Shown: one piece after another, positions 894 through 13,117 of the stretch | Numbering within the stretch: the stretch's first letter is position 1 | How the letters are laid out: each line of letters opens with the position of its first letter | Source: Halomonas qaidamensis | GTDB taxonomy: Bacteria; Pseudomonadota; Gammaproteobacteria; Pseudomonadales; Halomonadaceae | DNA: 64,000 bases | Reading direction: 5' to 3' | Assembly (NCBI RefSeq): GCF_025917315.1 | Contig: NZ_CP080627.1 | Span: 2,666,001-2,730,000 of the forward strand | The notes under the pieces: generated by a model | The model's database searches: none | Told to the model about the DNA's origin: nothing | What the model saw: only the letters and a program-made list of their open reading frames with translations | Translations under genes and position numbers: made by a program

Positions 894-3800
894 ATGAGCC
901 AGGCTGACACACCCACCCCACTCAACCCGCTCACGCTACCGCTTCACGGCAGCCGCTTGATTGAAGCCAGTGCGGGCACGGGCAAAACCTTCACCATCGC
1001 GTTGCTCTACGTGCGCCTAGTACTGGGCGGCCAGCACAGCAAAGACGACAGCGCGTTTGTGCGCCCGCTCACCCCGCCGGAAATTCTGGTAGTCACCTTT
1101 ACCAATGCCGCCACCCAGGAACTGCGTGAACGTATCCGCCACCGGCTGGTAGAAGCCGCCGCGGTGTTTAGAAAAGCACCGGGCGAGCCACCTGCTGACG
1201 ATCCTTTACTCATTCAACTCCGCAGCCAATACACAGAGGCCACCTGGCCCGCCTGCGCCCGCCGCCTGGAACTAGCCGCCGAATGGATGGACGAAGCCGC
1301 CGTTTCCACCATCCACAGCTGGTGCTACCGCATGCTGCGCGAACACGCCTTCGATAGCGGCAGCCTGTTCTCGCTCAACCTGGAAAACGACCAGCGCGAA
1401 CTGGAACAAGAAGTGGTGCGCGACTACTGGCGCACCTTCTATTACCCGCTGGATGCCGACTCTCTGGGCAGCATTACCCGCTACTGGAAATCGCCGGATA
1501 ATCTCCACGAAGAGGTGCGCAAGCTGCTCCACGAAAGCGAGGCACTCGGCAGCCAACGCCACGCGCCAGCAGAAACGTTAAGCACTGCCGACGCCGAACG
1601 CAGCGCACGCCTTGAAGAACTAAAAGCTCCTTGGCGAGCGTGGGTAAATGAACTACGGCAGCTTTTTGACGATGGCCAAACAGCCAAGCACTTTGCCCCT
1701 GGCAAAATGCGCAAAGATCATCGAGGAAAATGGCTGGATAAAATTCAGCAATGGGCGGAAAGCGACCTTGTCAGTCCTGATATGGATAAGAAGGCCACTG
1801 CATGGAAGCGACTGACACCGGCGGGCATTGCTGAAATCTGGAACGGAGAGCCACCGAACCACCCAGCGTTTGAGGCGTTTGAGGCACTGCCCGCCGCCCT
1901 CAACGCCTTGCCGGAACCGCGTAACGACCTGCTGATTCACGCCGTGCAGTGGTGCAAAGTACGTATGGAGCGCGAGCAAGAACGCCGTGCAGAAATGGGC
2001 CCAAACGACCTGCTCACCCATTTAGACCGCGCCCTGCAAGGCCCCAACAAAGACGCCCTGGCAGCGCAGATTTTGCGCCAGTTCCCCGTCGCGCTAATTG
2101 ACGAATTCCAGGACACCGACCCGATTCAGTACCGCATCTTTAACGCGGTCTATGACGTCGCCAACCCACGCCGCGACGCCGCCATGCTGCTGATCGGCGA
2201 CCCCAAACAGGCCATCTACGCCTTTCGCGGTGCGGATATCTTCACCTACCTGCAGGCTCGCCAAGACACCGCAGGCCGCCACGTCACGCTGGGCACCAAC
2301 TTCCGTTCCAGCCGCGCCATGGTGGAAGCCGTCAATCACTGCTTCCACTACGCCGATCAGCACCCCGCTGGGGCGTTTTTGTTTCGCGAAGACGGCGGCG
2401 ACAACCCGCTACAGTTTTTGCCGGTAGCCGCCAAAGGCCGCGACGAACAGCTGGTCCTCCAAGGCCATCCGCTGCCCGCCATGACGCTCTGGCCGTTAAC
2501 CAGCGAAGAACCACTTTCCAAAACCGCCTACCAAACCGAGATGGCCGAGTGCTGCGCCTCTTATATGGTGGAACTGCTCGCGGCAGGCCAAGGTGGCAAT
2601 AAAGAAAGCAAAAGCGGTTTTCAGAAAGGCGATGACTTCACCCCGCTAAAGCCTTCCGATATGGCGGTGCTGGTCAACGGACTGCAGGAAGCCCGCGCCA
2701 TTCGCTTAGCGCTGGCCAGCCGTGGAGTAAAGAGTGTTTACCTTTCCGACCACGACAAGGTGTTTAGCTCGCCCATGGCGAAGCAGGTAGAACGTTGGCT
2801 ACGCGCCTGTGCCGAGCCGCTCGCTAGCTCCCGCCAGGCCGAAGCCCACCTGCGCGCTGCCTTGGCCACGCCTGTATTGGGGCTAAGCCTAGCCGACCTT
2901 GATCATCTGCAACAAAACGAACTGGCTTGGGAAGCACGGGTGGAGCAATTCAGCCACTACCACCGCCTATGGCAGCGCCAAGGTGTGCTGCCGCTTGTAC
3001 GCCGCATGATGGTGGATTTCGATATTCCCGCCCGCCTGCTGGGGGAATTCGAAGAGGGTGAGCGCTTGCTCACCGACCTGCTGCACTTAGGCGAACTGCT
3101 GCAGCAAGCCAGCGCAGAATTGGACGGCGAACACGCGCTGATTCGCTTTCTGTACGAGGCCATTGCCGACCCAGAAAGCCACGGCGACAGCCACAAGCTG
3201 CGCCTGGAAAGCGACGCGGAGTTGGTCAAAGTGGTCACCATCCACAAATCCAAAGGCCTTGAGTACCCGCTGGTATTTCTGCCATTTATCGCCAACCACC
3301 GCCCGGTGAGCGATAAAGACATACCGCTGCGCTGGCACGACGCCCAAGGCAACCTTCAGCTCAGCCTAAGCGCCGATAAAGAAACACAGGCCACCGCCGA
3401 CCGAGAACGCCTGGGGGAAGACCTGCGCAAGCTTTATGTAGCGCTGACCCGCGCCCGCCACGCGACTTGGCTGGGGCTAGCCCCGCTGCAGGGGTTGGAA
3501 AATAGCGCCCTCGGCTACCTAATTAGCGGCGGAAAAACCATTGCACCGGCAGAGCTAACCACCGCGCTGGAAGCGCTGGCTCAAGGCAGCGAGATTGTTG
3601 TCAGCGAGCCACCGGCACCCACGGCCCAGCGCCTTGCCCTCTCTGAACAAAGCGCCGAACAAAACGCCACGCTTGGGCACGCCCGCACGCCCACGCGCCC
3701 GGCCAAAGAGCACTGGTGGATTGCCAGCTACTCGGCGCTACGCCTTTCCGGCACGCTCAGCGCCCCCACGGCAACGCCCCTGGAGCCCACCACCGCCCAG

Positions 3801-4631
3801 GAAGCTACCGCGTTTGAAGTATTGGATGAGCCGCAGGAACTATCCCAGTTGGCCCAGCCAGATACTTTCCACCTGCATAAATTTCCAAGGGGGCCAGGGC
3901 CGGGCACATTTTTGCATGGGCTTTTGGAATGGGCAGGCAGGCAGGGGTTTGAAGCCGCTGCCAACGATCACGATTCACTCAACGATATGCTATGGCGGCG
4001 CGTGCAGCTGCGTGGCTGGCAAGCATGGCAGGAACCGCTGGCTGGCTGGCTTTCAGCGCTACTCACCACACCGTTGCCGCTGGCCGCGCCGAACCAACAA
4101 AGCGTCGCACTGACCGAACTCACCAGCTACCAAGTAGAGCTAGAGTTCTGGCTGGCCGCCCAACGGGTCAACACCCAAGCGATTGATGCGCTGGTCAGCA
4201 AGCACTTACTGCCAGGGGTTGAGCGCCCAGCGCTGGATGCCGATACCCTAAACGGCATGCTGAAAGGCTTTATTGATTTAGCCTTTGAGCACCAAGGGCG
4301 CTTTTACGTGCTGGACTGGAAATCGAACTATTTAGGGCCGAATGACAGCGATTACGAACCGGACGCCTTGCGCCATGCGTTGCTGGCCAAACGCTACGAC
4401 CTCCAGGCCGCGCTTTACCTGCTAGCTATGCATCGGCTGCTCAAAGCGCGCCTGCCCAATTACGACCCGCACCAGCATCTAGGCGGTTCGATGACGGTAT
4501 TTCTACGCGGCAGCCGCAGCCCAGGGCGCGGGGTATTTTCCGAACCCGCCCCGGTTGAACTGATCGAAGCACTGGATAGCCTGTTTGCAGGCGCATCGTT
4601 TTCAAGCCCCGCACAGGAAGCGACGGTATGA
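894..4631 (+). CDS. recB: RecB, exodeoxyribonuclease V beta subunit (UvrD-type helicase plus nuclease)
   Basis: At 1245 residues this matches full-length RecB. The Walker A motif EASAGTGKT is at residues 24-32. Motif II, LIDEFQDTDPIQY, is near residue 400, followed by LIGDPKQAIYAFRGAD. Motif V/VI elements VTIHKSKGLEYP and LYVALTRARH follow later. The C-terminal RecB nuclease domain is recognisable from GFIDLAFEHQGRFYVLDWKSN-like text near residues 1125-1145, with its metal-binding Asp and catalytic Lys. RecB is the 3'-5' motor and sole nuclease of RecBCD, acting in double-strand break repair and degradation of phage DNA. It overlaps recD by 4 bases (ATGA), so the two are translationally coupled. 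Confidence 0.97.
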   Translation: MSQADTPTPLNPLTLPLHGSRLIEASAGTGKTFTIALLYVRLVLGGQHSKDDSAFVRPLTPPEILVVTFTNAATQELRERIRHRLVEAAAVFRKAPGEPPADDPLLIQLRSQYTEATWPACARRLELAAEWMDEAAVSTIHSWCYRMLREHAFDSGSLFSLNLENDQRELEQEVVRDYWRTFYYPLDADSLGSITRYWKSPDNLHEEVRKLLHESEALGSQRHAPAETLSTADAERSARLEELKAPWRAWVNELRQLFDDGQTAKHFAPGKMRKDHRGKWLDKIQQWAESDLVSPDMDKKATAWKRLTPAGIAEIWNGEPPNHPAFEAFEALPAALNALPEPRNDLLIHAVQWCKVRMEREQERRAEMGPNDLLTHLDRALQGPNKDALAAQILRQFPVALIDEFQDTDPIQYRIFNAVYDVANPRRDAAMLLIGDPKQAIYAFRGADIFTYLQARQDTAGRHVTLGTNFRSSRAMVEAVNHCFHYADQHPAGAFLFREDGGDNPLQFLPVAAKGRDEQLVLQGHPLPAMTLWPLTSEEPLSKTAYQTEMAECCASYMVELLAAGQGGNKESKSGFQKGDDFTPLKPSDMAVLVNGLQEARAIRLALASRGVKSVYLSDHDKVFSSPMAKQVERWLRACAEPLASSRQAEAHLRAALATPVLGLSLADLDHLQQNELAWEARVEQFSHYHRLWQRQGVLPLVRRMMVDFDIPARLLGEFEEGERLLTDLLHLGELLQQASAELDGEHALIRFLYEAIADPESHGDSHKLRLESDAELVKVVTIHKSKGLEYPLVFLPFIANHRPVSDKDIPLRWHDAQGNLQLSLSADKETQATADRERLGEDLRKLYVALTRARHATWLGLAPLQGLENSALGYLISGGKTIAPAELTTALEALAQGSEIVVSEPPAPTAQRLALSEQSAEQNATLGHARTPTRPAKEHWWIASYSALRLSGTLSAPTATPLEPTTAQEATAFEVLDEPQELSQLAQPDTFHLHKFPRGPGPGTFLHGLLEWAGRQGFEAAANDHDSLNDMLWRRVQLRGWQAWQEPLAGWLSALLTTPLPLAAPNQQSVALTELTSYQVELEFWLAAQRVNTQAIDALVSKHLLPGVERPALDADTLNGMLKGFIDLAFEHQGRFYVLDWKSNYLGPNDSDYEPDALRHALLAKRYDLQAALYLLAMHRLLKARLPNYDPHQHLGGSMTVFLRGSRSPGRGVFSEPAPVELIEALDSLFAGASFSSPAQEATV

Positions 4632-6964
4632 GTAAGCCAAAAGACACCCACACCTTCGACTTGTTTGGCGATGCCGTCGAGACACAGGATGCCCAGCCTT
4701 CAATAGCCCCCGCGCCAGTGAGCGCTCACCCTGCGTTAAGCGATACCACCGAATTGCTAACCCTATGCGAGCGCTGGGTAGCCAGGGGCTGGCTGCGTGA
4801 TTTAGACCGCGCCCTGGTGCGCTTTCTAGCGGCAGAAGCACCGGATGCCCCAGCGCTGCTGCTGTTAGCCGCCGCCCTGGCCAGCCACCAGCTAGGCCGA
4901 GGCCATGTGTGTCTGGATTTAACCGCCACGCTTAACGCACCGGATTTCGCCCTTTCGCTACCGCCAGAAGGGGATGATTTAACCGACCCGCCACCGCTGC
5001 CTAGCGACGTGCTGGCAACGCTCACGCTAAGCGAATGGCAAGCCGCGCTGCATCACCCACTGCTCACCAGCGAAGGCCCCGGCAACACGCCGCTGGTGGT
5101 AGTGACCGCTCACTCAGCTTCAGAAACGCGACTCTACTTGCGTCGCTACTGGCAGTATGAACAAACCCTGCACCAGCAAATCGCCAGCCGCTTAGAAGAT
5201 GAAAACACCCCCCACACACAGGCGATGAATGATAACGCCACGACGGCAACTGATAACCGTTGTAGGAGGCCAATTTATTGGGCGATGGGTGACGATAGTC
5301 ACCCTGGCCTTCTCCCCCAGGCCCTGCATATTCTGTTCAAGCCAAGCGACGACCTCGACTGGCAAAAAACCGCCTGCGCCCTGGCCGCCCGCAGCCGCTT
5401 CGGCATTATTACCGGCGGCCCCGGCACCGGCAAGACCACCACCGTGGTGCGCCTGCTCGCCCTGCTGCAAACGCTGCAACTGGCTCACTCACCCAACCAG
5501 CCGCTGCGCATTCGCCTAGCCGCCCCCACCGGCAAAGCCGCCGCCCGCCTGAATGAATCCATCGCCGGGCAAGTCAGCCAACTCCCCTTCAAAGAATTAG
5601 CCACTTTGCTGGAAGGAGCTTTGTGGGAGGGAGCTTCAGCTCGCGAAAATGAGGCCACAGAACAGCTAAAAGCCGCGATCCCAACTGAAGTGACAACACT
5701 GCACCGCCTTCTAGGTGCCCGCCCCGATACTCGCCACTTCCGCCACAGCGCCGCCAATCCGCTAGCGCTGGATGTGCTGGTCATCGACGAAGCCTCCATG
5801 GTGGATATCGAAATGATGGCCGCCGTACTGAGCGCCCTGCCCGCCAATGCCCAGTGCGTGCTGCTGGGGGATAAAGACCAGTTGGCCTCGGTAGAGGCTG
5901 GCTCGGTACTTGGCGATTTATGCCGCCGCGCCGAGGCCGCCCACTACACGCACGAAACCGCCCAATGGCTGGAAAGCGCCACCGGCCAGCCGCTACCGCC
6001 AAAGTACCTGGATGCTGAAGGCCAGCCACTCGACCAAGCCATTACCATGCTGCGGGTAAGCCACCGCTTTAACGAACACAGCGGCATCGGCCAGTTGGCC
6101 CAGGCGATTAACCAGCCCAGCCATACCCAAACTGATCGGGAAAAACAGCAGGCCGTTAACGCCGTGCTGCGCCATGGCTACCCAGACCTGCACCACCTAA
6201 CGCTTTCAGAGGACACCGCGCTGGATAAGCTGGTCATTCACGGCAGCGCGGATAAGTTTCTGAATAGTGGTGAAGGCCGCACCAACCACAAAAATGAACC
6301 CATCGCCCCGCCCACCGGCTATCGCCATTACCTAAAGGTGCTGAACGCGCAGCGCCCGCGTGGGGAATCGTTTGAGGACAACCCAGCGGCCTATAATGCC
6401 TGGGCTGCTGAGGTTCTCAGCGCCTACAGCCACTTTCAATTGCTATGCGCGCTGCGCAAAGGCCCCTGGGGGGTAGAAGGCCTAAACCTGCATATCGCCA
6501 AAACCCTGCGCAGCGAAAAGCTGCTGTTTGGCAGTGATTACACGTTAGAGAAAGGCTGGTATGAAGGCCGCCCGGTACTGGTCACCCAAAACGACTACGG
6601 CCTAAAACTGATGAACGGCGATATCGGCATCACCCTCGCCGTGCCAGACCCGCGCACGCCGGGTAAATCGCTATTACGCGTTGCCTTTCCGACAAGCGAC
6701 CCGGAAAAAACCATCCGCTGGGTACTGCCCTCCCGCCTGCACGCGGTAGAAACCGTATTTGCGATGACGGTACACAAATCCCAAGGCTCGGAGTTCCTGC
6801 ACACCGCCCTGCTGCTACCGCCCACTATCAACCCGATTCTCACCCGCGAGCTGGTCTACACCGGCATCACCCGCGCCCGCGACTGGCTCACGCTGGTGGA
6901 AGCCAAAGGCGGGGTGTTGAATGAGGCGGTGACTAGGGAGGTTATGAGGGTGAGTGGGATGTAG
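4628..6964 (+). CDS. recD: RecD, exodeoxyribonuclease V alpha subunit (5'-3' helicase)
   Basis: The helicase motifs are intact: Walker A GGPGTGKTTT near residue 264, LVIDEASMVD, LLGDKDQLASVEAGSVLGD, and the C-terminal TVHKSQGSEF and YTGITRARDWL. It is the 5'-3' motor of RecBCD. At 778 residues it is long for the family (E. coli RecD is about 608). Part of the excess comes from linkers around residues 190-225 and 325-350, both of which contain REP-like palindromes translated in frame (see 5260-5288 and 5621-5646). The insertions lie between conserved motifs, so function is probably retained. No strong intrinsic terminator follows. The start ATGA overlaps the recB stop. Confidence 0.96.
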   Translation: MSKPKDTHTFDLFGDAVETQDAQPSIAPAPVSAHPALSDTTELLTLCERWVARGWLRDLDRALVRFLAAEAPDAPALLLLAAALASHQLGRGHVCLDLTATLNAPDFALSLPPEGDDLTDPPPLPSDVLATLTLSEWQAALHHPLLTSEGPGNTPLVVVTAHSASETRLYLRRYWQYEQTLHQQIASRLEDENTPHTQAMNDNATTATDNRCRRPIYWAMGDDSHPGLLPQALHILFKPSDDLDWQKTACALAARSRFGIITGGPGTGKTTTVVRLLALLQTLQLAHSPNQPLRIRLAAPTGKAAARLNESIAGQVSQLPFKELATLLEGALWEGASARENEATEQLKAAIPTEVTTLHRLLGARPDTRHFRHSAANPLALDVLVIDEASMVDIEMMAAVLSALPANAQCVLLGDKDQLASVEAGSVLGDLCRRAEAAHYTHETAQWLESATGQPLPPKYLDAEGQPLDQAITMLRVSHRFNEHSGIGQLAQAINQPSHTQTDREKQQAVNAVLRHGYPDLHHLTLSEDTALDKLVIHGSADKFLNSGEGRTNHKNEPIAPPTGYRHYLKVLNAQRPRGESFEDNPAAYNAWAAEVLSAYSHFQLLCALRKGPWGVEGLNLHIAKTLRSEKLLFGSDYTLEKGWYEGRPVLVTQNDYGLKLMNGDIGITLAVPDPRTPGKSLLRVAFPTSDPEKTIRWVLPSRLHAVETVFAMTVHKSQGSEFLHTALLLPPTINPILTRELVYTGITRARDWLTLVEAKGGVLNEAVTREVMRVSGM
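5260..5288 (+). repeat. REP-like palindrome inside recD (type B)
   Basis: This 29-base element starts TTGTAGGAGGCC and ends GGGCGATGG. The same ends occur in an intergenic element at 12451-12480. Between them each copy has its own small stem: CCAAT/ATTGG here, CCACT/AGTGG there. The hairpin is kept although the bases differ. In recD it is read in frame as part of a linker near residues 211-221. Confidence 0.65.
5621..5646 (+). repeat. REP-like palindrome inside recD (type A)
   Basis: This 26-base element contains GGAGCTTCAGCTC. It matches the reverse complement of the intergenic element at 12405-12430 in 25 of 26 positions. It is translated in frame as LWEGASARE, near residues 332-340 of RecD, between the Walker A and Walker B motifs. 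Elements of this kind are normally confined to intergenic DNA. Confidence 0.7.
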
Positions 6965-7002
6965 GAAATCAAAACCGATATTAGTGGTGATAATGTCGGT
7001 CT

Positions 7003-7020
7003 TCGGCCAAGAGCGGATGT
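7003..7020 (+). repeat. 18-bp degenerate repeat, copy 1
   Basis: TCGGCCAAGAGCGGATGT lies just after recD. Two relatives in the same direction follow at 7531-7548 and 8309-8326. All three fit TCGGCCA-MR-AGCGGA-YR-T. The copies fall in the gaps between the small minus-strand genes. Function unknown. Confidence 0.6.
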
Positions 7021-7104
7021 TAAAGAGTTTTCAGATTAATGATGTTCACAACATCTATTCCACGCCCCCTGCCCTAAAACGCGGAGCGTGGCGGGCTGGG
7101 AATG

Positions 7105-7329
7105 TCAGTTTCCGTCCTTGAATTTTGCTTTACAATTGCCGCTCATGCACATGGTACAGTAGTGCTCTCTATCCTCATGCTGGGTACCCTCAGCGATGAT
7201 AATGCCGCAGCCGTTGCAGAACAGGGTGCCAATCCCGTCTTCGAATTTCACAATTGCATGTTCGTAGTCCATAAAGTTCTCCGCGAAGACCCCATCCTGC
7301 AAGAACGGGTAGTAATAGCTTGTCAGCAA
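7105..7329 (-). CDS. Small zinc-ribbon-like conserved protein
   Basis: The protein has up to 74 residues, with CNGCG in the middle and CTMC near the C-terminus, plus histidines and a further cysteine. It looks like a small zinc ribbon. The longest frame begins at a TTG. An ATG at 7272 (MDYEHAIVKF) would give about 55 residues and keep both CxxC pairs. The frame stays open upstream of the TTG. A separate short frame (7340-7426) ending just before it may be part of the original N-terminus lost by frameshift. No family was recognised. A plus-strand frame covers the same bases but lacks protein-like patterning. No partner or operon is evident. Confidence 0.5.
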   Translation of the reverse strand: MLTSYYYPFLQDGVFAENFMDYEHAIVKFEDGIGTLFCNGCGIIIAEGTQHEDREHYCTMCMSGNCKAKFKDGN

Positions 7330-7691
7330 AAGCCGACCTTTATCTGATATTTCCTTCGATGGCGCTATCAGGCGTCAGTTCAATTTCCTCTCGACCATCA
7401 GGTTGATACAGATAATAACAACGCACCTAAACAGCACAGGCTAAGCAATTCTCTCCCTGGCAACAGATGCATTCAGTGCCATAATTCTCGGATATGCAAC
7501 TCTGCATCACCAAAGTTGGCTTGGCCGCTATCGGCCAAAAGCGGACATGCACCGCAACTGACATAACAGGTAATACAGCCACAGCGAAACCGTTAGCTGC
7601 AATTTTAAGCTAGGTCTAAATCTCAGTCATCACTAGTCTGCTCGCCCGCTATCAACGGCCTTGACCTTCGAAGCAATGCTACCAAACTGAA
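7330..7691. other. Intergenic stretch within the accessory region
   Basis: About 360 bases without a convincing gene. It holds the second copy of the 18-bp repeat, which partly forms an inverted repeat TTGGCCG...CGGCCAA at 7521-7538, and the short 29-codon frame at 7340-7426 on the minus strand. No promoter or terminator could be assigned with confidence. Confidence 0.4.
7531..7548 (+). repeat. 18-bp degenerate repeat, copy 2
   Basis: TCGGCCAAAAGCGGACAT; see the copy at 7003-7020. Its first half also pairs with TTGGCCG immediately upstream, so this copy could form a hairpin. Confidence 0.6.
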
Positions 7692-8276
7692 TTAATACCT
7701 ATACACCAAGTGATCATAATTACCATCGATAAATTCAGCTTCAACACCAAACAGGCCCCCAATTTCTTTTAACGCACAGAGAACGTCTTGTTGAATCCTC
7801 TGCATGCTTCTTTCTGAAAAATCGTGCTGGAACTTTGCTGCAAAACTGAACCCTATATAAACTACCGGATCCTTATAATGAACAAGATAGTTACGCATAT
7901 CAAAAAGATCCTGAATGCCAGCTCTCCAACTTGAATCCCCATAAGGCAATCGAGAGATTTTGTACAATTTTTTAAGCTTGTCTATTGTGTTTCCAGAGCT
8001 TCTTTCATCCTCTTCTTTAGCAATTGGGTGAGCATGCCAGACCAAATTTACAAATGCCTCAAATGCAATGGCCCAGCCAAGAATAGCTTCAATACAGAGC
8101 GCTATAGTTTCATCATCTTCAAACCCTGGACCTTTAAAGAAATAAGGCTTTCCAGACTCTGGCACGGAATCAGGAACCTTAACCATCTTCTTCTTAGCTT
8201 CATCAAAACAATTGTTTGCTCTCTTTAGCATGAGTTGTTCAACATTGAGCCTGTATCCATATGTCATATATTTCAC
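7692..8276 (-). CDS. Hypothetical protein with a HEPN-like RxxxxH motif
   Basis: This 194-residue, largely helical protein was not matched to a named family. The most informative feature is RNYLVH at residues 128-133. It fits the R-x(4-6)-H catalytic signature of HEPN ribonucleases, including the common Asn after the Arg, and is embedded in a helix (DLFDMRNYLVHYKDP). An upstream helix with EAILGWAIAFEAFVNLVW is like the hydrophobic helix of HEPN folds. HEPN proteins are frequent RNA-cutting effectors in toxin-antitoxin and anti-phage systems. The gene is AT-rich compared with recBCD and lies in the same direction as the ATPase and RT-protease genes upstream. The HEPN assignment is a motif-level inference. 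Confidence 0.72.
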   Translation of the reverse strand: MKYMTYGYRLNVEQLMLKRANNCFDEAKKKMVKVPDSVPESGKPYFFKGPGFEDDETIALCIEAILGWAIAFEAFVNLVWHAHPIAKEEDERSSGNTIDKLKKLYKISRLPYGDSSWRAGIQDLFDMRNYLVHYKDPVVYIGFSFAAKFQHDFSERSMQRIQQDVLCALKEIGGLFGVEAEFIDGNYDHLVYRY

Positions 8277-8308
8277 TACGCTTCAAAGGTTCATTAAGCT
8301 GCCTTTTT

Positions 8309-8326
8309 TCGGCCACGAGCGGATAT
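8309..8326 (+). repeat. 18-bp degenerate repeat, copy 3
   Basis: TCGGCCACGAGCGGATAT, between the HEPN-like gene and the ATP-binding gene; see the copy at 7003-7020. Confidence 0.55.
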
Positions 8327-8440
8327 TTAGGCGACACTGATTAATGCCTAGCATAAAGGCAGTTTGTGGAGCAGAGGGAACCGCAATTTACTAAACATAT
8401 AGGCAATTGATTTCTTATGTAAATCCATTCTCATTCCTTG

Positions 8441-8520
8441 CAGCTAACATCACACCTAAATAACCAGCGCAGCTTTGCTGCGTCCAGCGCCGAAGGCGCG
8501 AAACCGATTAATTTGTTAGC
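8441..8520 (-). other. attC-like palindromic site
   Basis: The 80-base element is bounded by GCTAACA and its exact inverse TGTTAGC. Inside, an imperfect outer stem (AATTAATCGG against CTGGTTATTT) encloses two perfect hairpins, GCGCC-TTC-GGCGC and GCAGC-AAA-GCTGC. On the minus strand it starts 4 bases after the stop codon of the ATP-binding gene. That is how integron cassette recombination sites (attC) follow their genes. The outer boxes do not strictly fit the RYYYAAC/GTTRRRY core, and no integrase gene is in the window. The cassette origin is therefore an inference. Confidence 0.45.
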
Positions 8521-8524
8521 TCAC

Positions 8525-9508
8525 TCAAACCGTTTTAGATATTTCAGAGGCTGCGCTATGCCGACCTTCTCTTCCAGCTTCTTCTTCACCAACACTAATA
8601 ATATCTTGTAAAACACCAGCAAAGCTGCGAGGATTTTTGTTTAAGTGAATGCCAACAAATGTTCCCTTAAAAGGCAACTCCGCATCAACTTTATTGCCAT
8701 TTTCACATGTTAACTTTCTTACCCCGCTTCCTACACAAAACCAACCAAAGCTATTTCCTAACTCAGACAGAACATATAAGCCAAATCCCGAATTTTTATA
8801 TATATTTTCTTTTTCAGACATATTCTGAGTACGCGTAATACCTGGTTTTATAGCCTCTCTCAGCGCATTTTCTTCCTTTAATTCATATGCGGTGCGAAGG
8901 GTTTTGTGAACCCCACAACCTTCATCAATTAATGCTATTTCAGAATGACCATTTACCCATCGTTGTCCACATATGAAACATGAGTCTGAACCAGAGTGTT
9001 CCAAAGCATTTCTAATCACTTCGCGAATTGAATAACTAAAACCTTTTTTGGCTTCTCCATTGTCTTCACCGGCTAAAACATTAGCTAACCCATCAGATAG
9101 AAAAACGATTGCATCGATCAACTCCTCGCCCGTCTCAGCAATAGATTCATCTAACTCTGCACGTCTTATTTCTCGAATAGGCAAATATCTAGTATTTCCT
9201 TTTGCAACACCTACGTTCTTTCCAACATCTTTCATACCAGCGTAATCAAAAAAACCGAGATGCATTAAATAAGAGTGAGCATTATTTTTTTCTGTAATAC
9301 CTGATTTAGTAGTTCTTAAACCTAATTCACGGCGCCTACTTATCCACCTGCGGAAATAACTTCCCGCAACAAGCATTGCCATTGGTTTGGAGAATTCTAA
9401 AGGAGAGAAGTCAACGTTCACATTGTCTACAGTTTGACTTTGCGAAAGATCTTCCTGCAGTTTACCTAGAGAAGAAGGTTGAAATTGACGTGGCAATCTA
9501 ATTTCCAT
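8525..9508 (-). CDS. GHKL-type ATP-binding protein with STAS-like N-terminus
   Basis: This 327-residue protein has a histidine-kinase-like ATPase fold in its second half: N-box EVIRNALEHSG (Asn167), G1 box LIDEGCG (194-199) and G2 box NSGFGLYVLSEL (239-250). There is no phospho-accepting His domain or transmembrane segment, so it is not a typical sensor kinase. The first 50 residues (DFSPLEFSKPMAMLVAG) resemble a STAS-like strand-helix unit. Similar stand-alone GHKL proteins occur in accessory islands, often with unknown or defence-related roles. It lies upstream of the HEPN-like gene and downstream of the RT-protease, all on the minus strand, and is AT-rich. Specific function not known. Confidence 0.8.
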   Translation of the reverse strand: MEIRLPRQFQPSSLGKLQEDLSQSQTVDNVNVDFSPLEFSKPMAMLVAGSYFRRWISRRRELGLRTTKSGITEKNNAHSYLMHLGFFDYAGMKDVGKNVGVAKGNTRYLPIREIRRAELDESIAETGEELIDAIVFLSDGLANVLAGEDNGEAKKGFSYSIREVIRNALEHSGSDSCFICGQRWVNGHSEIALIDEGCGVHKTLRTAYELKEENALREAIKPGITRTQNMSEKENIYKNSGFGLYVLSELGNSFGWFCVGSGVRKLTCENGNKVDAELPFKGTFVGIHLNKNPRSFAGVLQDIISVGEEEAGREGRHSAASEISKTV

Positions 9509-9779
9509 ATTTTAAATCTCACCCTATGCTTAACTAATACCTAAATCCGTGAAGCCGACACAGACCGGCTAGTGCCGTTTCTTGTGGCGTTGGTCGACGT
9601 TGACAGCCTGTTTTGCCCTGCATTTCAACCGATCGAGCACGCTGACTCAGGCTAACAGCACCCGTTAGCCCAGGAATGCGCTGCCTTGCCCAATAAACGG
9701 TCAGCATGGCGACCTTTTGGGATAACGCAGTCGGGTGCGCAGGGTGTTGAGCACCGTCATCCGCCCAACAGTTTACTTT
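9509..9779. other. GC-rich spacer between ATPase and RT-protease genes
   Basis: No gene is seen here. Near 9545-9772 the stretch is visibly richer in G+C than the genes on either side. It contains the short inverted repeat GGCTAAC-AGCACCC-GTTAGCC at 9650-9670, whose arms resemble those of the palindromes at 8441-8520 and 11518-11598. It may be a remnant recombination site. Confidence 0.4.
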
Positions 9780-11420
9780 TTAAAGTTGCAAAAAATGATG
9801 AGCACTAATAAAAGCATTTCTACCAGTTAGGGCAGATTCCTGCGTATTAAAATCAACTGTTGTCGTTCGACCTTTCACGATCATTCCTATTACCTGATGA
9901 AAATCATTTATTACAGGCCCGCCACTATAACCTGCTCCTATTTCAGCATCTACCTCATAATTATCAACTGTCGAAATATTTACATGTGATGTTATAGATG
10001 TTTTGAGAACACTTACAGTAGTGTGTCCAGCCATATTATCAGGAAAGCCCACCAGTGAAACCTGGTAACCAGGAAACATTTCTTCTTTATGATATATATC
10101 TAAGCTTTGAAATATTTTATTAGGATTATCAACAAATTCTAGCTCAACTATATCTCGATGCTTACATTGCTTCGCTACTTTCATTAAATATTTAACACTG
10201 CGTTCATTTATCCTCGAAATGTAACAATACTCGGCGTCATCAGCTTTACTAAAAACGTGTGAACAGGTTAAAACTTTTTGATCTTTAACCATAAAAGCTG
10301 TGCCTTGGATAGACTCAGCTTCTTCAGTAACGTTTTGAACTCCTTCGAAATCCAGAATCCAAACACATTCTTGGAGCTCTCTCTGCTTTGCAATGTCTCT
10401 GTATTTTTGATCGGTATTAACAAGCTTAGAAGTTCGCGTAGGAAGCTTTTTCTTCAAAGGAAGTCTATTGAATTTTTTTGCAAGCATTTGATATACGGTA
10501 GAGTCTACTCCCTTAATCATACCTATAAAATTAATTCTACCGGCCACTACTTTTTCAAGCCTTTTTGGTTCTTTTTCAGGAAATTTTTCCCAAAAAACTA
10601 CATTGGCAGCGTCAATATCACCAGACAACGCATGAATCATAGCCTTAGTTGTTCTTATATACCGTCGATCAACATTAACTTTTTTATTGACTTTCAGTCC
10701 TGTAACAATTTGACGGGACCGAGAAAATTCACCACGCGTTTTTTGTTTATTTAAATAAAATCCACTTTTTTCTACAATGTTAATGAATTCATTAGATGGT
10801 TGAAAAGCACCTTCTGTGGAAGAGCACACACCTTTAAAGTTATTGTTTCTAAAAGAGAAAGTTATATCGTCAGCATAGCGTGTATAGAAAGCGTGATTCT
10901 TTTTAGCAAGCAACGACAATCGACGATCAAGCTGCCGACTTATCATATTTGATATTACGGGTGATGTAGGAGCACCTTGAGGAATAGATCCATTCAAGCA
11001 ACAGATTGTAGCAATAATTTGAGAGGTGTCTGAACGTAGGTTATATGGGGGAGCAGAAAGCAACCCCCTTACTCGACCGAAATTTATATGGCCATAAAAA
11101 TCAGTAAGGTCAACATTAAACACTAACGCTTTATTCACATGGGGACTAGCATTATAAAAGATCCCCCGATTCTTAATAAATGCTGTAGCGGCCGGGTGAG
11201 GAGTATATAAATCTTCGAGCAATGGCTTCAGGTTATTTTGAAGGTATTTTAATCTCTTATCTGGGGCAGCAATAGCGCGCACACCGCCAGATTTCTTTGC
11301 AATCTTAAAGGTAGTATAAAGATTATTCGGTCTAACTTTATAAACTGTAAAGCATAGATTTGGGTAAGTAGTTCCTAGTAGTGTAGATAGCTGCCTAGGT
11401 GTCGTATTAGTGTCTAGCAT
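9780..11420 (-). CDS. Retron-type reverse transcriptase fused to a trypsin-like serine protease
   Basis: The protein has 546 residues in two domains. Residues about 1-310 are a reverse transcriptase. They show the retron-specific NAxxH motif (NASPH, 90-94), the domain A Asp (DLTDFYGHI, 104-112), PQGAPTSP (147-154), YADD (182-185) and the retron VTG motif (239-241). Residues about 350-546 are a trypsin-like protease with a full triad: His388 in TCSHVF, Asp423 in HRDIVE and Ser499 in GYSGGP. Retron RTs make msDNA from an adjacent RNA and act with an effector in anti-phage defence; here the protease would be the effector. ATG at 11420 is preferred over the TTG one codon earlier. An AAGGCGG Shine-Dalgarno-like run precedes it. 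The gene is AT-rich (one sampled 60-base line, 10381-10440, is 38% G+C). No msr-msd RNA could be defined with confidence. Confidence 0.92.
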   Translation of the reverse strand: MLDTNTTPRQLSTLLGTTYPNLCFTVYKVRPNNLYTTFKIAKKSGGVRAIAAPDKRLKYLQNNLKPLLEDLYTPHPAATAFIKNRGIFYNASPHVNKALVFNVDLTDFYGHINFGRVRGLLSAPPYNLRSDTSQIIATICCLNGSIPQGAPTSPVISNMISRQLDRRLSLLAKKNHAFYTRYADDITFSFRNNNFKGVCSSTEGAFQPSNEFINIVEKSGFYLNKQKTRGEFSRSRQIVTGLKVNKKVNVDRRYIRTTKAMIHALSGDIDAANVVFWEKFPEKEPKRLEKVVAGRINFIGMIKGVDSTVYQMLAKKFNRLPLKKKLPTRTSKLVNTDQKYRDIAKQRELQECVWILDFEGVQNVTEEAESIQGTAFMVKDQKVLTCSHVFSKADDAEYCYISRINERSVKYLMKVAKQCKHRDIVELEFVDNPNKIFQSLDIYHKEEMFPGYQVSLVGFPDNMAGHTTVSVLKTSITSHVNISTVDNYEVDAEIGAGYSGGPVINDFHQVIGMIVKGRTTTVDFNTQESALTGRNAFISAHHFLQL

Positions 11421-11517
11421 CAAGGCCGCCTTCGAGGTTTCACTTTACGCTATTCGAGATGCAACCGTAGACACTGAGGATACCATTTTAAGCTCACAGT
11501 GGCAGAGCTGCGATTAA

Positions 11518-11598
11518 GGTGCTAACTTCGTTGTCAATCAGCGGCATTTGTCTCCGCCAAGATTAACCCCCGTTAGGCGGCATCAACAAGTTAGCACC
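11518..11598. repeat. Palindromic element upstream of the RT-protease gene
   Basis: GGTGCTAACTT-C-GTTG on the left pairs with CAAC-AAGTTAGCACC on the right, 15 base pairs with a single bulged C. The interior has a second stem, CCGCC...GGCGG, enclosing TAAC/GTTA. The element ends 98 bases before the RT start. A bulged base in an outer stem is characteristic of attC sites, and flanking complementary arms are also characteristic of retron RNAs. It is too short for a standard msr-msd. It could be a recombination site, a structured leader RNA or both. Confidence 0.5.
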
Positions 11599-11913
11599 AC
11601 CAAATATAAGATTCAATATATTTTCGAAAAAATAAGCGCTTACAATTAATCTGGTTAAATATTTTGCACTTCTTTTTCTTCCTATCCTTTCCTATAAGAT
11701 GGGTTTTGAAAATCCATCGAGCGTGATATGTGATACAAGTATTAAGCTACTCACCTTATAGCTGGATATAACGCTTTAGCATGTTTATCCACAAACTCCA
11801 GTCTAAAACACTCTATGTTATTGATGTAAATAACATAATTTAAGCTGGATTACATATCCAAAATTCTAACGCCTGCTGCATTTCCAACAATGTCTGCTAA
11901 GGGTCGAAAGGCG
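11599..11913. other. AT-rich intergenic stretch
   Basis: No gene is evident. It contains the palindrome TAAGCGCTTA at 11632-11641 and a short-loop hairpin, GATGGGTTTT-G-AAAATCCATC, near 11699-11719. That hairpin is enclosed by CTATAAG (11692-11698) and CTTATAG (11756-11762). These structures lie upstream of the RT-protease gene on its strand, so they are candidates for part of a retron RNA or its promoter region. Confidence 0.35.
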
Positions 11914-12237
11914 TCATTCGCTCACTTCCTTATAAAAAGCTACCCTACCCGCAATAGCTTCCATGCCTTCCATCGGCTCCTCATAACTCCAAGCAACATC
12001 CCAATGCTCACCCAGCGAGAAAGTCACCGTATGCCCTTTGAATGGGCAATACGTGGTGGTTTCTGAAACGGTGAGTAAGTCCATCCGCACATCTTCGCGT
12101 GGGAAGTAGTGGCGTGGCGGGTAGCCGCGTTCGCGGAGTTCAATCGTATTGGTGGCGTCGGCGATTAAGGTGCCATCAACCTGCGCCTGCACGCGTTGGC
12201 TAATAGGGTGAAGCTCAATGCGTGAGGCATTTGGCAT
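11914..12237 (-). CDS. DUF427 family protein
   Basis: This 107-residue single-domain protein has the family's small beta-barrel text: RVQAQVDGTLIADATN, then YPPRHYFPREDV, then TTYCPFKGHTVTFSL and WSYEEP. DUF427 proteins are widespread and uncharacterised; some annotations call the fold nucleotidyltransferase-like without evidence of activity. The length is normal for the family and the frame is intact. It stands alone, flanked by the palindrome region on one side and repeats on the other. Confidence 0.9.
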   Translation of the reverse strand: MPNASRIELHPISQRVQAQVDGTLIADATNTIELRERGYPPRHYFPREDVRMDLLTVSETTTYCPFKGHTVTFSLGEHWDVAWSYEEPMEGMEAIAGRVAFYKEVSE

Positions 12238-12404
12238 TAGGTTGTTCCCTGCGGCGCTTTTTTCGCTCTAGTAAAATTAGCCTAGCAGCTAAATTTGTTT
12301 AAGCCCACCGCAAAGGAGTAACACTTTAGGCTACGGGGTTGACCTGGATCAGGGTTGTGGAATTACTGGCTTACTGCCTGCTCTATATGTTGGTGCCTAC
12401 TTCA

Positions 12405-12480
12405 TCGCGAGCTGAAGCTCCCTCCTACAAAATATCGTGCCACTGCTCTATTGTAGGAGGCCACTTCTAGTGGGCGATGG
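12405..12480. repeat. Pair of intergenic REP-like palindromes
   Basis: Element A (12405-12430) contains GAGCTGAAGCTCC, and element B (12451-12480) starts TTGTAGGAGGCCA. They face each other across about 20 bases. Both have near-identical relatives inside recD (5621-5646 and 5260-5288). They are probably members of a dispersed REP/BIME-type family. Confidence 0.6.
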
Positions 12481-12584
12481 CGGCGTAGCCGCCCTTAGCC
12501 AGCTCTATCATCATCGAAGTGTAGAACCAAAGCTGAAGCCCCCTTATACAACCAGGGTCAGTTTGGGTGGATAAACATGTTTCA

Positions 12585-12932
12585 CGGGTGCCTCATTCGC
12601 TCGTTCCTCACGAGATTCGTTACCACGCGCTACTTAACTCATTGAATAGGAAAGTTTTGTAGCGTGGTGTAAGCGTTAGCGCACCCGCGGAGGTCGGGAG
12701 TAGCGGCGATGGGCGTCGTTCCGCCGCCTGCCGCGGGTGCCTCATTCGCTCGTTCCTCACGAGATTCGTTACCACGCGCTACTTAACGCATTGAATAGGA
12801 AGGTTTTGTAGCGCGGTGTAAGCGTTAGCGCACCCGCGGAGGTCGGGAGTAGCGGCGATGGGCCTCGTTCCGCCGCCTGCCGCGGGTGCCTCATTCGCTC
12901 GTTCCTCGCGAGATTCGTTACCACGCGCTACA
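12585..12932. repeat. 149-bp tandem repeat, two full copies plus a third partial copy
   Basis: Units run 12585-12733 and 12734-12882, differing at 4 positions by direct comparison. A partial third unit covers 12883-12932. Within each full unit CGGGTGC at one end is inverted as GCACCCG about 100 bases later, and CGCGCTAC is followed by an inverted GTAGCG. Each unit therefore contains a long imperfect palindrome. A diverged single copy lies at 20654-20761. The region is non-coding between the DUF427 gene and the truncated regulator. Confidence 0.9.
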
Positions 12933-12943
12933 CGTTGTTTTAC

Positions 12944-13117
12944 TTAGTGAAGCTGTTCAAAGACGTCGGGGTGTTGCTCAGTAATTCGCAACAGAGCAAC
13001 TGCCGGGCCTTGAGGCTCTCTGCGGCCTTGTTCCCAGTCCTGAAGTGTACGTATGCTGACCCCAAGAAGACCTGCAAAGGCTGATTGCGATAGATTCAGT
13101 TTATGCCGAATTAATTG
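12944..13117 (-). pseudogene. Truncated XRE-family regulator (NadS/HigA-like antitoxin remnant)
   Basis: The frame encodes about 57 residues of a helix-turn-helix protein, including LNLSQSAFAGLLGVS, RTLQDWEQGRREPQGP and ALLRITEQHPDVF, and ends at TAA. These match the C-terminal two-thirds of NadS-type XRE antitoxins. An in-frame TGA (13118-13120) lies directly before the first codon, and no start codon or ribosome site is present. The N-terminus and the expected toxin partner are missing. It directly abuts phnA/yjdM on the same strand, so the 5' part was probably deleted when the neighbouring DNA was joined. Confidence 0.78.

Follow-up and report, generated by a model that had tools for sequence, protein, structure and literature searches.

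A predicted type XI retron with a candidate msr-msd RNA in a defence-cargo hotspot between recD and a DUF427 gene of Halomonas qaidamensis

The window analysed here, a stretch of 64,000 nucleotides (nt) of the Halomonas qaidamensis genome (contig NZ_CP080627.1, positions 2,666,001 to 2,730,000), carries on its minus strand a gene for a reverse transcriptase (RT) fused to a trypsin-like protease (9780..11420). Directly upstream of this gene lies a predicted msr-msd RNA of 157 nt (11425..11581, minus strand), with four bases between the RNA and the ATG, and both sit in a variable cargo interval (7545..11850) that is anchored on the left by recD (4628..6964, plus strand; TIGR01447, 2.2e-169) and on the right by a DUF427 gene (11914..12237, minus strand; PF04248, 1.2e-28). 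Judged by its sequence, the locus is a type XI retron, a kind that is already catalogued and whose definition is reportedly due to Mestre et al. 2020. What we add to this known, little-studied kind is the predicted RNA and the hotspot in which the retron lies.

The RT-protease fusion and its class

The gene is a single unbroken open reading frame (ORF) on the minus strand, 9780-11423, which opens with TTG; counted from the ATG at 11420 it encodes 546 amino acids, with the TTG at 11423 as an alternative start. Pfam finds RVT_1 (3.4e-15) and Trypsin_2 (3.4e-13) in the 546-residue protein, which is laid out as an RT (residues ~1-320), a linker around 331-336 and an HtrA-fold protease (~336-546). 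The NAxxH and VTG motifs are specific to retrons, and an earlier note on this DNA had claimed NASPH, YADD and VTG for the RT domain; all three are present as claimed, starting at residues 90, 182 and 239 from the ATG. The triad that it had named in the protease, His388, Asp423 and Ser499 in the same numbering, is likewise in place. In an alignment (A1) of 52 sequences, the query and 51 hand-picked from 120 listed homologues, where residue numbers are those from the ATG plus one (P0001 numbers), the His, Asp and Ser of the triad, the VTG, N91, H95 and the second Asp of YADD are invariant, and Y183 and D185 are kept in at least 90% of the sequences. Among the best 120 of 6194 homologues, both Pfam domains occur in 117 (the protein itself counted) and the nearest named homologues are from Halomonas. 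An AlphaFold2 model of the fusion reached a pLDDT of 91.8 and a pTM of 0.61.

Profile searches place the protein in a defined retron class. The PADLOC profile RT-Protease_XI, which PADLOC flags as 'single gene', matches at 9e-156, with residues 5-526 aligned to positions 7-490 of 510, and the lower-ranked profiles RT-TIR_XII (1.1e-112) and RT-Toprim_I-C (4e-100) cover the RT part only. NCBIfam retron models match the RT at 1e-94 to 1e-95, compared with 5e-9 for the group II intron model, and the closest solved structures are retron RTs, with Eco2/Ec67 first at 33-34% identity over the RT. We then placed the domain in a tree of 99 RT domains (L056, L058, L098, L003 and L081 left out), where it stands among retron RTs and groups with L093, from an IMG/VR contig, and L120 inside a clade of ten RT-proteases with support of 100/99. 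The phylogenetic comparison that the earlier note had called for thus upholds its description of a retron-type RT fused to a protease. The locus combines the traits of a retron (NAxxH/VTG with YADD, placement among retron RTs and, as a prediction, an msr-msd RNA whose a1/a2 arms lie directly upstream of the RT) with those of type XI, namely an RT with a C-terminal trypsin-like protease, a class profile matched over its length and the lack of a conserved partner. In the tree, protease fusions do not form a single clade: the protease label requires nine changes, at least four of which are forced by well-supported branches, and this leaves room for more than one gain or loss of the fusion. The RT of a locus from one genome of the same family is identical to that of Salinicola acroporae (Halomonadaceae); this and the named homologues point to Halomonas or Vreelandella as the probable host.

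Comparison with known systems leads to the same class. With type XI retrons the window protein shares the single gene, the order of RT then trypsin-like protease and the near full-length profile match, and we saw no difference. Retron Eco2/Ec67 (type I-C, RT-Toprim) has a Toprim nuclease as its effector where the window protein has an HtrA-fold protease, and Retron-TIR (type XII, RT-TIR), the next-best PADLOC family, has a TIR effector. From the DegS, DegP and HtrA proteases the protein differs by its fusion to an RT and by having no match to a PDZ domain. Type XI retrons would be retrons with a protease as effector. In the available part of PMC12405507, protease domains are mentioned once, as RT fusions in the survey made there, and the words type XI, protease and trypsin are absent from a paper on environmental retrons (PMC12548924). 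A partial literature search found neither a test of a type XI retron nor a name for the recD-DUF427 hotspot.

The gene is rare close to home. Among 275 genomes of the family, the whole protein matched only in its own genome, and matches in nine others cover RT residues only; a first scan of contigs with the single window protein as query gave no match. A second, distant RT is found in the genome itself (L002, C1:3611888-3612049; 54% over 54 residues).

A predicted msr-msd RNA upstream of the gene

An element common to the upstream DNA of relatives led to the prediction of the RNA. In the predicted order, the RNA begins with the a1 arm (11568..11581, made up of GCCGCCT at 11581-11575 and CGGGG at 11572-11568), whose helix covaries in relatives. 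It is followed just before TTAA by a candidate branching G (11567), identified by its place after a1 in the aligned RNAs, and by an msr stem-loop, GGCGG-AGACAAATG-CCGCT (11540..11558), whose five pairs are kept in eight distinct sequences. After a variable stretch comes GTGAAA (11438..11443), which adjoins a2, is invariant in alignments A3 and A5 and presumably marks the start of reverse transcription; the a2 arm itself (11425..11437) consists of CCTCG (11437-11433) and AGGCGGC (11431-11425). All these elements are on the minus strand. The a2 arm shares bases with a likely ribosome-binding site, AAGG (11432-11429), and several of the Pseudomonas relatives have an a2 that extends over a probable start codon. 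These overlaps with translation-start signals suggest that formation of multicopy single-stranded DNA (msDNA) and translation of the RT may be mutually exclusive.

We built a covariance model (R2) from ten relatives, excluding the window sequence. Across the 64-kb window R2 found the RNA at 11581-11425, minus strand, with an approximate E of 3.3e-7 and the next match at 1.1, so that the search for msr-msd proposed earlier for 11420-11770 returned a candidate; on the whole genome the RNA was the sole match at E<=10 (2.0e-5; 150 of 693 first-look candidates scored). When 12 sequences, of which 11 are distinct, were aligned to R1, the first model, all nine a1/a2 pairs proved to be changed on both sides in one sequence or more. 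Pairing in this alignment reached 84.0% of all cells compared with 41-51% in slid controls, and its covariation score was reached by none of 500 shuffles. The alignment had been fitted to the model and leans towards the structure, and sequences that are related may surpass shuffles of this type. The msr stem-loop is paired throughout (100%) in its eight distinct sequences, two of its pairs having changed on both sides, in pieces excised with a pattern that itself favours pairing; since 184 of 500 shuffles hold as many doubly changed pairs, its support is conserved pairing more than covariation. Taken locus by locus, the a1/a2 helix beats all 20 of its shuffles in 22 of 41 loci, the window being among the 41 and not among the 22.

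R1 also found L127, a locus outside that model, at 7.8e-10; there the RNA immediately precedes the leading fragment of a split RT-protease gene. The layout seen in the window recurs in an Ec67-family retron on a plasmid (L131). In the genus of the Pseudomonas relative, the RNA is present in six of 398 genomes, exactly those that carry the RT-protease, with eight candidates scored per genome under strict filters; because the model was trained on these six (for G787, on the identical copy L094), the informative part of the scan is the 392 genomes without a match. Rfam 15, scanned over 6900-13000 at E<=10, gave five matches, all far below gathering scores and unrelated in kind, none of them plausible, and a promoter scan of 9500-11950 gave five sites against a shuffle mean of 6.9, none of them in front of the RNA.

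Several results weigh against this assignment. R2 took over its structure from an alignment in which the window was one of the sequences, its calibration was short, and the E-values of covariance models are rough. R1 had no match at E<=1 on the more distant type XI loci searched, and support is weak for a small stem at columns 63-65/71-73, where 73% of cells are paired. In the window itself, the a1/a2 helix was equalled by five of 20 shuffles and is not significant alone; the RNA has an unremarkable fold energy (z -1.53, with 17 of 200 shuffles as stable or more so), and the presumed msd DNA is a poorer folder than the bulk of its shuffles (z +1.49, with 191 of 200 as stable or more so). Moreover, a transcript from 11600 prefers a leader hairpin that excludes the a1/a2 helix. 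This hairpin is formed by an inverted repeat (11518..11598, minus strand) with the arms GGTGCTAACTT (11598-11588) and AAGTTAGCACC (11528-11518), which competes with the a1/a2 fold. Homology and covariation, rather than the folding energy of the window, carry the case for msr-msd, and the predicted RNA is defined here for the type XI subclade of the window. With it the locus becomes a complete unit for cloning, and the subclade has a covariance model. As to the leader repeat, its 3' arm falls inside the presumed msd, and the repeat was not seen by eye in L093.

The recD-DUF427 interval as a hotspot for defence cargo

The interval between recD and the DUF427 gene holds the retron, a weakly HATPase-like ORF and a further ORF of 194 amino acids. 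Compared with G229, a genome of the same species, the window is 99% identical up to 7544 and 90% identical from 11851, with different DNA between, and the retron is absent from G229. GC content is 0.37-0.39 in the cargo genes and 0.60 in recB and recD. Sixty of the 82 genomes in the genus contain DNA like 11424-12300; the count takes in the own genome, and some of the matches are to a short repeat and nothing more. We fetched 29 relatives of the same genus, namely the ten best-matching genomes except G224 and 20 others chosen by hand. In 23 of them recD and DUF427 converge, with 2.1-7.7 kb between the two. The fetched pieces of the other six (L112, L113, L117, L138, L150 and L153) contain no recD; for L112, L113, L117 and L150, the contig stops no more than about 7.3 kb away on the recD side.

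Only one pair of intervals has more than 600 aligned bases in common (blastn), and 14 of the 23 match PADLOC defence profiles, in scans that for most intervals covered just the largest ORF or the two largest (with thresholds of E<=1e-5 for the first scan and 1e-10 for the rest). The cargo so recognised comprises HamA with HamB (L114), a HamB-like helicase alone (L118), SIR2 with HerA (L116), Old (L119), GajA with GajB (L137 and L151), GajA (L145), Drt8 (L141), AbiU (L142), PDC-S53 (L143), ThsA (L146), Drt3a with Drt3b (L152), a phospholipase 'Effector' profile that we read as CBASS (L147) and a PDC-S60 protein that begins with a ThsB match (L148). In seven intervals (L111, L135, L139, L140, L144, L149 and L154) the scanned genes had no PADLOC match; the L111 interval holds DUF2806 by Pfam. 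A Pfam scan, the only one made of the L115 interval, found a KAP NTPase and Mrr there, and the L136 interval lay outside the cargo scans. These nine intervals without a PADLOC assignment may hold undescribed defence systems. The recD-DUF427 interval is a defence-cargo hotspot in this genus, and a compact place to look for defence genes. Because the interval carries unrelated defence cargo in relatives of the same genus, the recBCD neighbourhood of the retron is best taken as a property of the site. For the defence role put forward in the earlier note, support comes only from this genomic context.

At the right edge of the interval, a 54-base sequence (11851-11907) is dispersed in many genomes of the genus, with two copies about 3 kb apart in L161. 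Two or three DUF427-like copies lie 5-10 kb apart on one contig in three cases (G208:C26, G267:C8 and G265:C7), as if stacked as tandem cargo units.

Loci of relatives

In 39 relatives' loci, one of which (L081) has no protease match, tblastn at E<=1e-3 found no homologue of RecB, RecD, DUF427 or the products of the two ORFs between the retron and recD, 8525-9508 and 7692-8276, in the fetched flanks, which reach up to 8 kb, are shorter in some (1.5 kb in L120) and leave diverged AddAB outside the search. A count of the ORFs up to 4 kb from the gene, 270 in 36 loci (L077 left out), shows no family common to more than three loci, and the retron is therefore best described as an RNA and one gene. 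L093, the nearest relative with fetched DNA, has a terminase and a replication gene within about 5 kb, and L134, a Haematobacter relative, adjoins genes annotated as an ATP-dependent endonuclease and a UvrD helicase, so that some relatives have a mobile or defence context; others, such as L132, are surrounded by ordinary metabolic genes.

A proposed mechanism and its alternatives

In our view the locus is probably a type XI retron whose msr-msd RNA and RT-protease, carried as hotspot cargo, work through a protease gated by msDNA. The RT would copy the msd part of the RNA into msDNA joined to the G just after a1, and the msDNA would stay bound to the fusion protein and keep the C-terminal HtrA-fold protease inactive, in the way that the Toprim domain fused to the RT of retron Eco2 is held in check by its msDNA assembly. 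HtrA proteases are commonly under allosteric control, so gating by msDNA would suit such an enzyme. If a phage product then cut the msDNA or took it away, the protease would be released and could cleave a host or phage protein and so stop the infection. As there is no conserved neighbour, the protease probably acts without a partner gene. For Eco2, the available part of PMC12405507 describes a self-inhibited trimer of msDNA and protein and implicates the phage protein DenB as the trigger. It counts against the gating scheme that, at its pTM, the AlphaFold2 model does not fix the placement of the protease on the RT.

The earlier note had envisaged instead, on the model of Ec48, that the retron monitors RecBCD and that phage inhibition of RecBCD frees the protease. 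The retron does lie 2.8 kb from recD, and Gabija, which the available part of a preprint (PMC12407980) links to phages that antagonise RecBCD, is also found in the hotspot (L137, L151 and L145). However, the proposed association of homologues with recBCD loci failed in all 39 relatives within their flanks, unrelated systems occupy the same place in the genus, and a genome of the same species lacks the retron. Conserved linkage to recBCD is our own criterion for a guard, Ec48 itself not being defined by linkage. Given the empty flanks and the hotspot, which explains the position, we dropped the RecBCD guard as the leading idea and regard it as quite unlikely. A broader proposal, in which the hotspot systems (Gabija, retron XI, DRT3, Thoeris and others) gain from the recBCD side through co-regulation or a common trigger in DNA-end attack, with the retron protease as a proteolytic branch and the leader hairpin switching the transcript between RT-protease translation and msDNA, is a long shot.

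Alternatively, the protease might switch on a pro-nuclease that is its partner, like the proteases of the nuclease-protease pairs in Hachiman and AVAST. According to the available part of PMC12799240, pairs of a trypsin-like protease and a metallo-beta-lactamase (MBL) nuclease occur in Hachiman, AVAST, Lamassu and DRT, the protease activates the neighbouring nuclease, and the known pairs join an N-terminal protease to an upstream MBL nuclease gene. The window protein resembles these in having a trypsin-like protease fused to a defence enzyme, but its protease is C-terminal and the 36 loci have no conserved neighbour. An MBL nuclease partner was rejected: no MBL match appeared among the nine window ORFs scanned with Pfam, and the H.H.DH motif, a weak test, occurs in one of the 270 neighbouring ORFs, itself of doubtful reality. 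With no such gene found beside the RT-protease, a substrate other than an MBL nuclease is to be expected, and activation of a partner seems unlikely. That the RNA and RT work as described in a system that has decayed or serves another purpose than defence would fit the restriction of the whole-protein match to one genome of the family and the lack of a strong hairpin in the presumed msd DNA. Yet the catalytic residues are all intact and invariant in A1, the gene sits in a defence hotspot, a terminase and a replication gene lie near L093, and the Haematobacter relative adjoins the genes annotated as endonuclease and helicase; we regard decay or a non-defence role as very improbable. Release of an msDNA-gated protease remains our preferred account.

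Other genes around the retron

The RT-protease gene had been described as immediately downstream of recBCD. This needs correction, as the gene and recD converge, and a gap of 2.8 kb with two ORFs separates the gene from the end of recD. That it lies beside recBCD is borne out for recB (894..4631, plus strand; TIGR00609, 1025.5 bits) and recD, which are in the window, and not for recC, which ends at about 97 and is almost wholly outside. The first of the intervening ORFs, 7692..8276 (minus strand, 194 amino acids), has no family match and is taken as separate cargo; the second, 8525..9508 (minus strand, 327 amino acids), is weakly HATPase-like (PF02518 at 0.0057, below its cut-off). Both were rejected as partners of the retron, having no homologues in the flanks of the 39 relatives. 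G232 has a 93% identical copy of the 8525-9508 gene at another place, beside a copy of the right-edge short repeat, and no match to the retron at 1e-30; this separate copy speaks further against the gene as a partner and makes it look like an independent passenger. Between recC and recB, at 216-797, lies a pair formed by a Phd/YefM-like antitoxin (below cut-off) and a ParE-like toxin.
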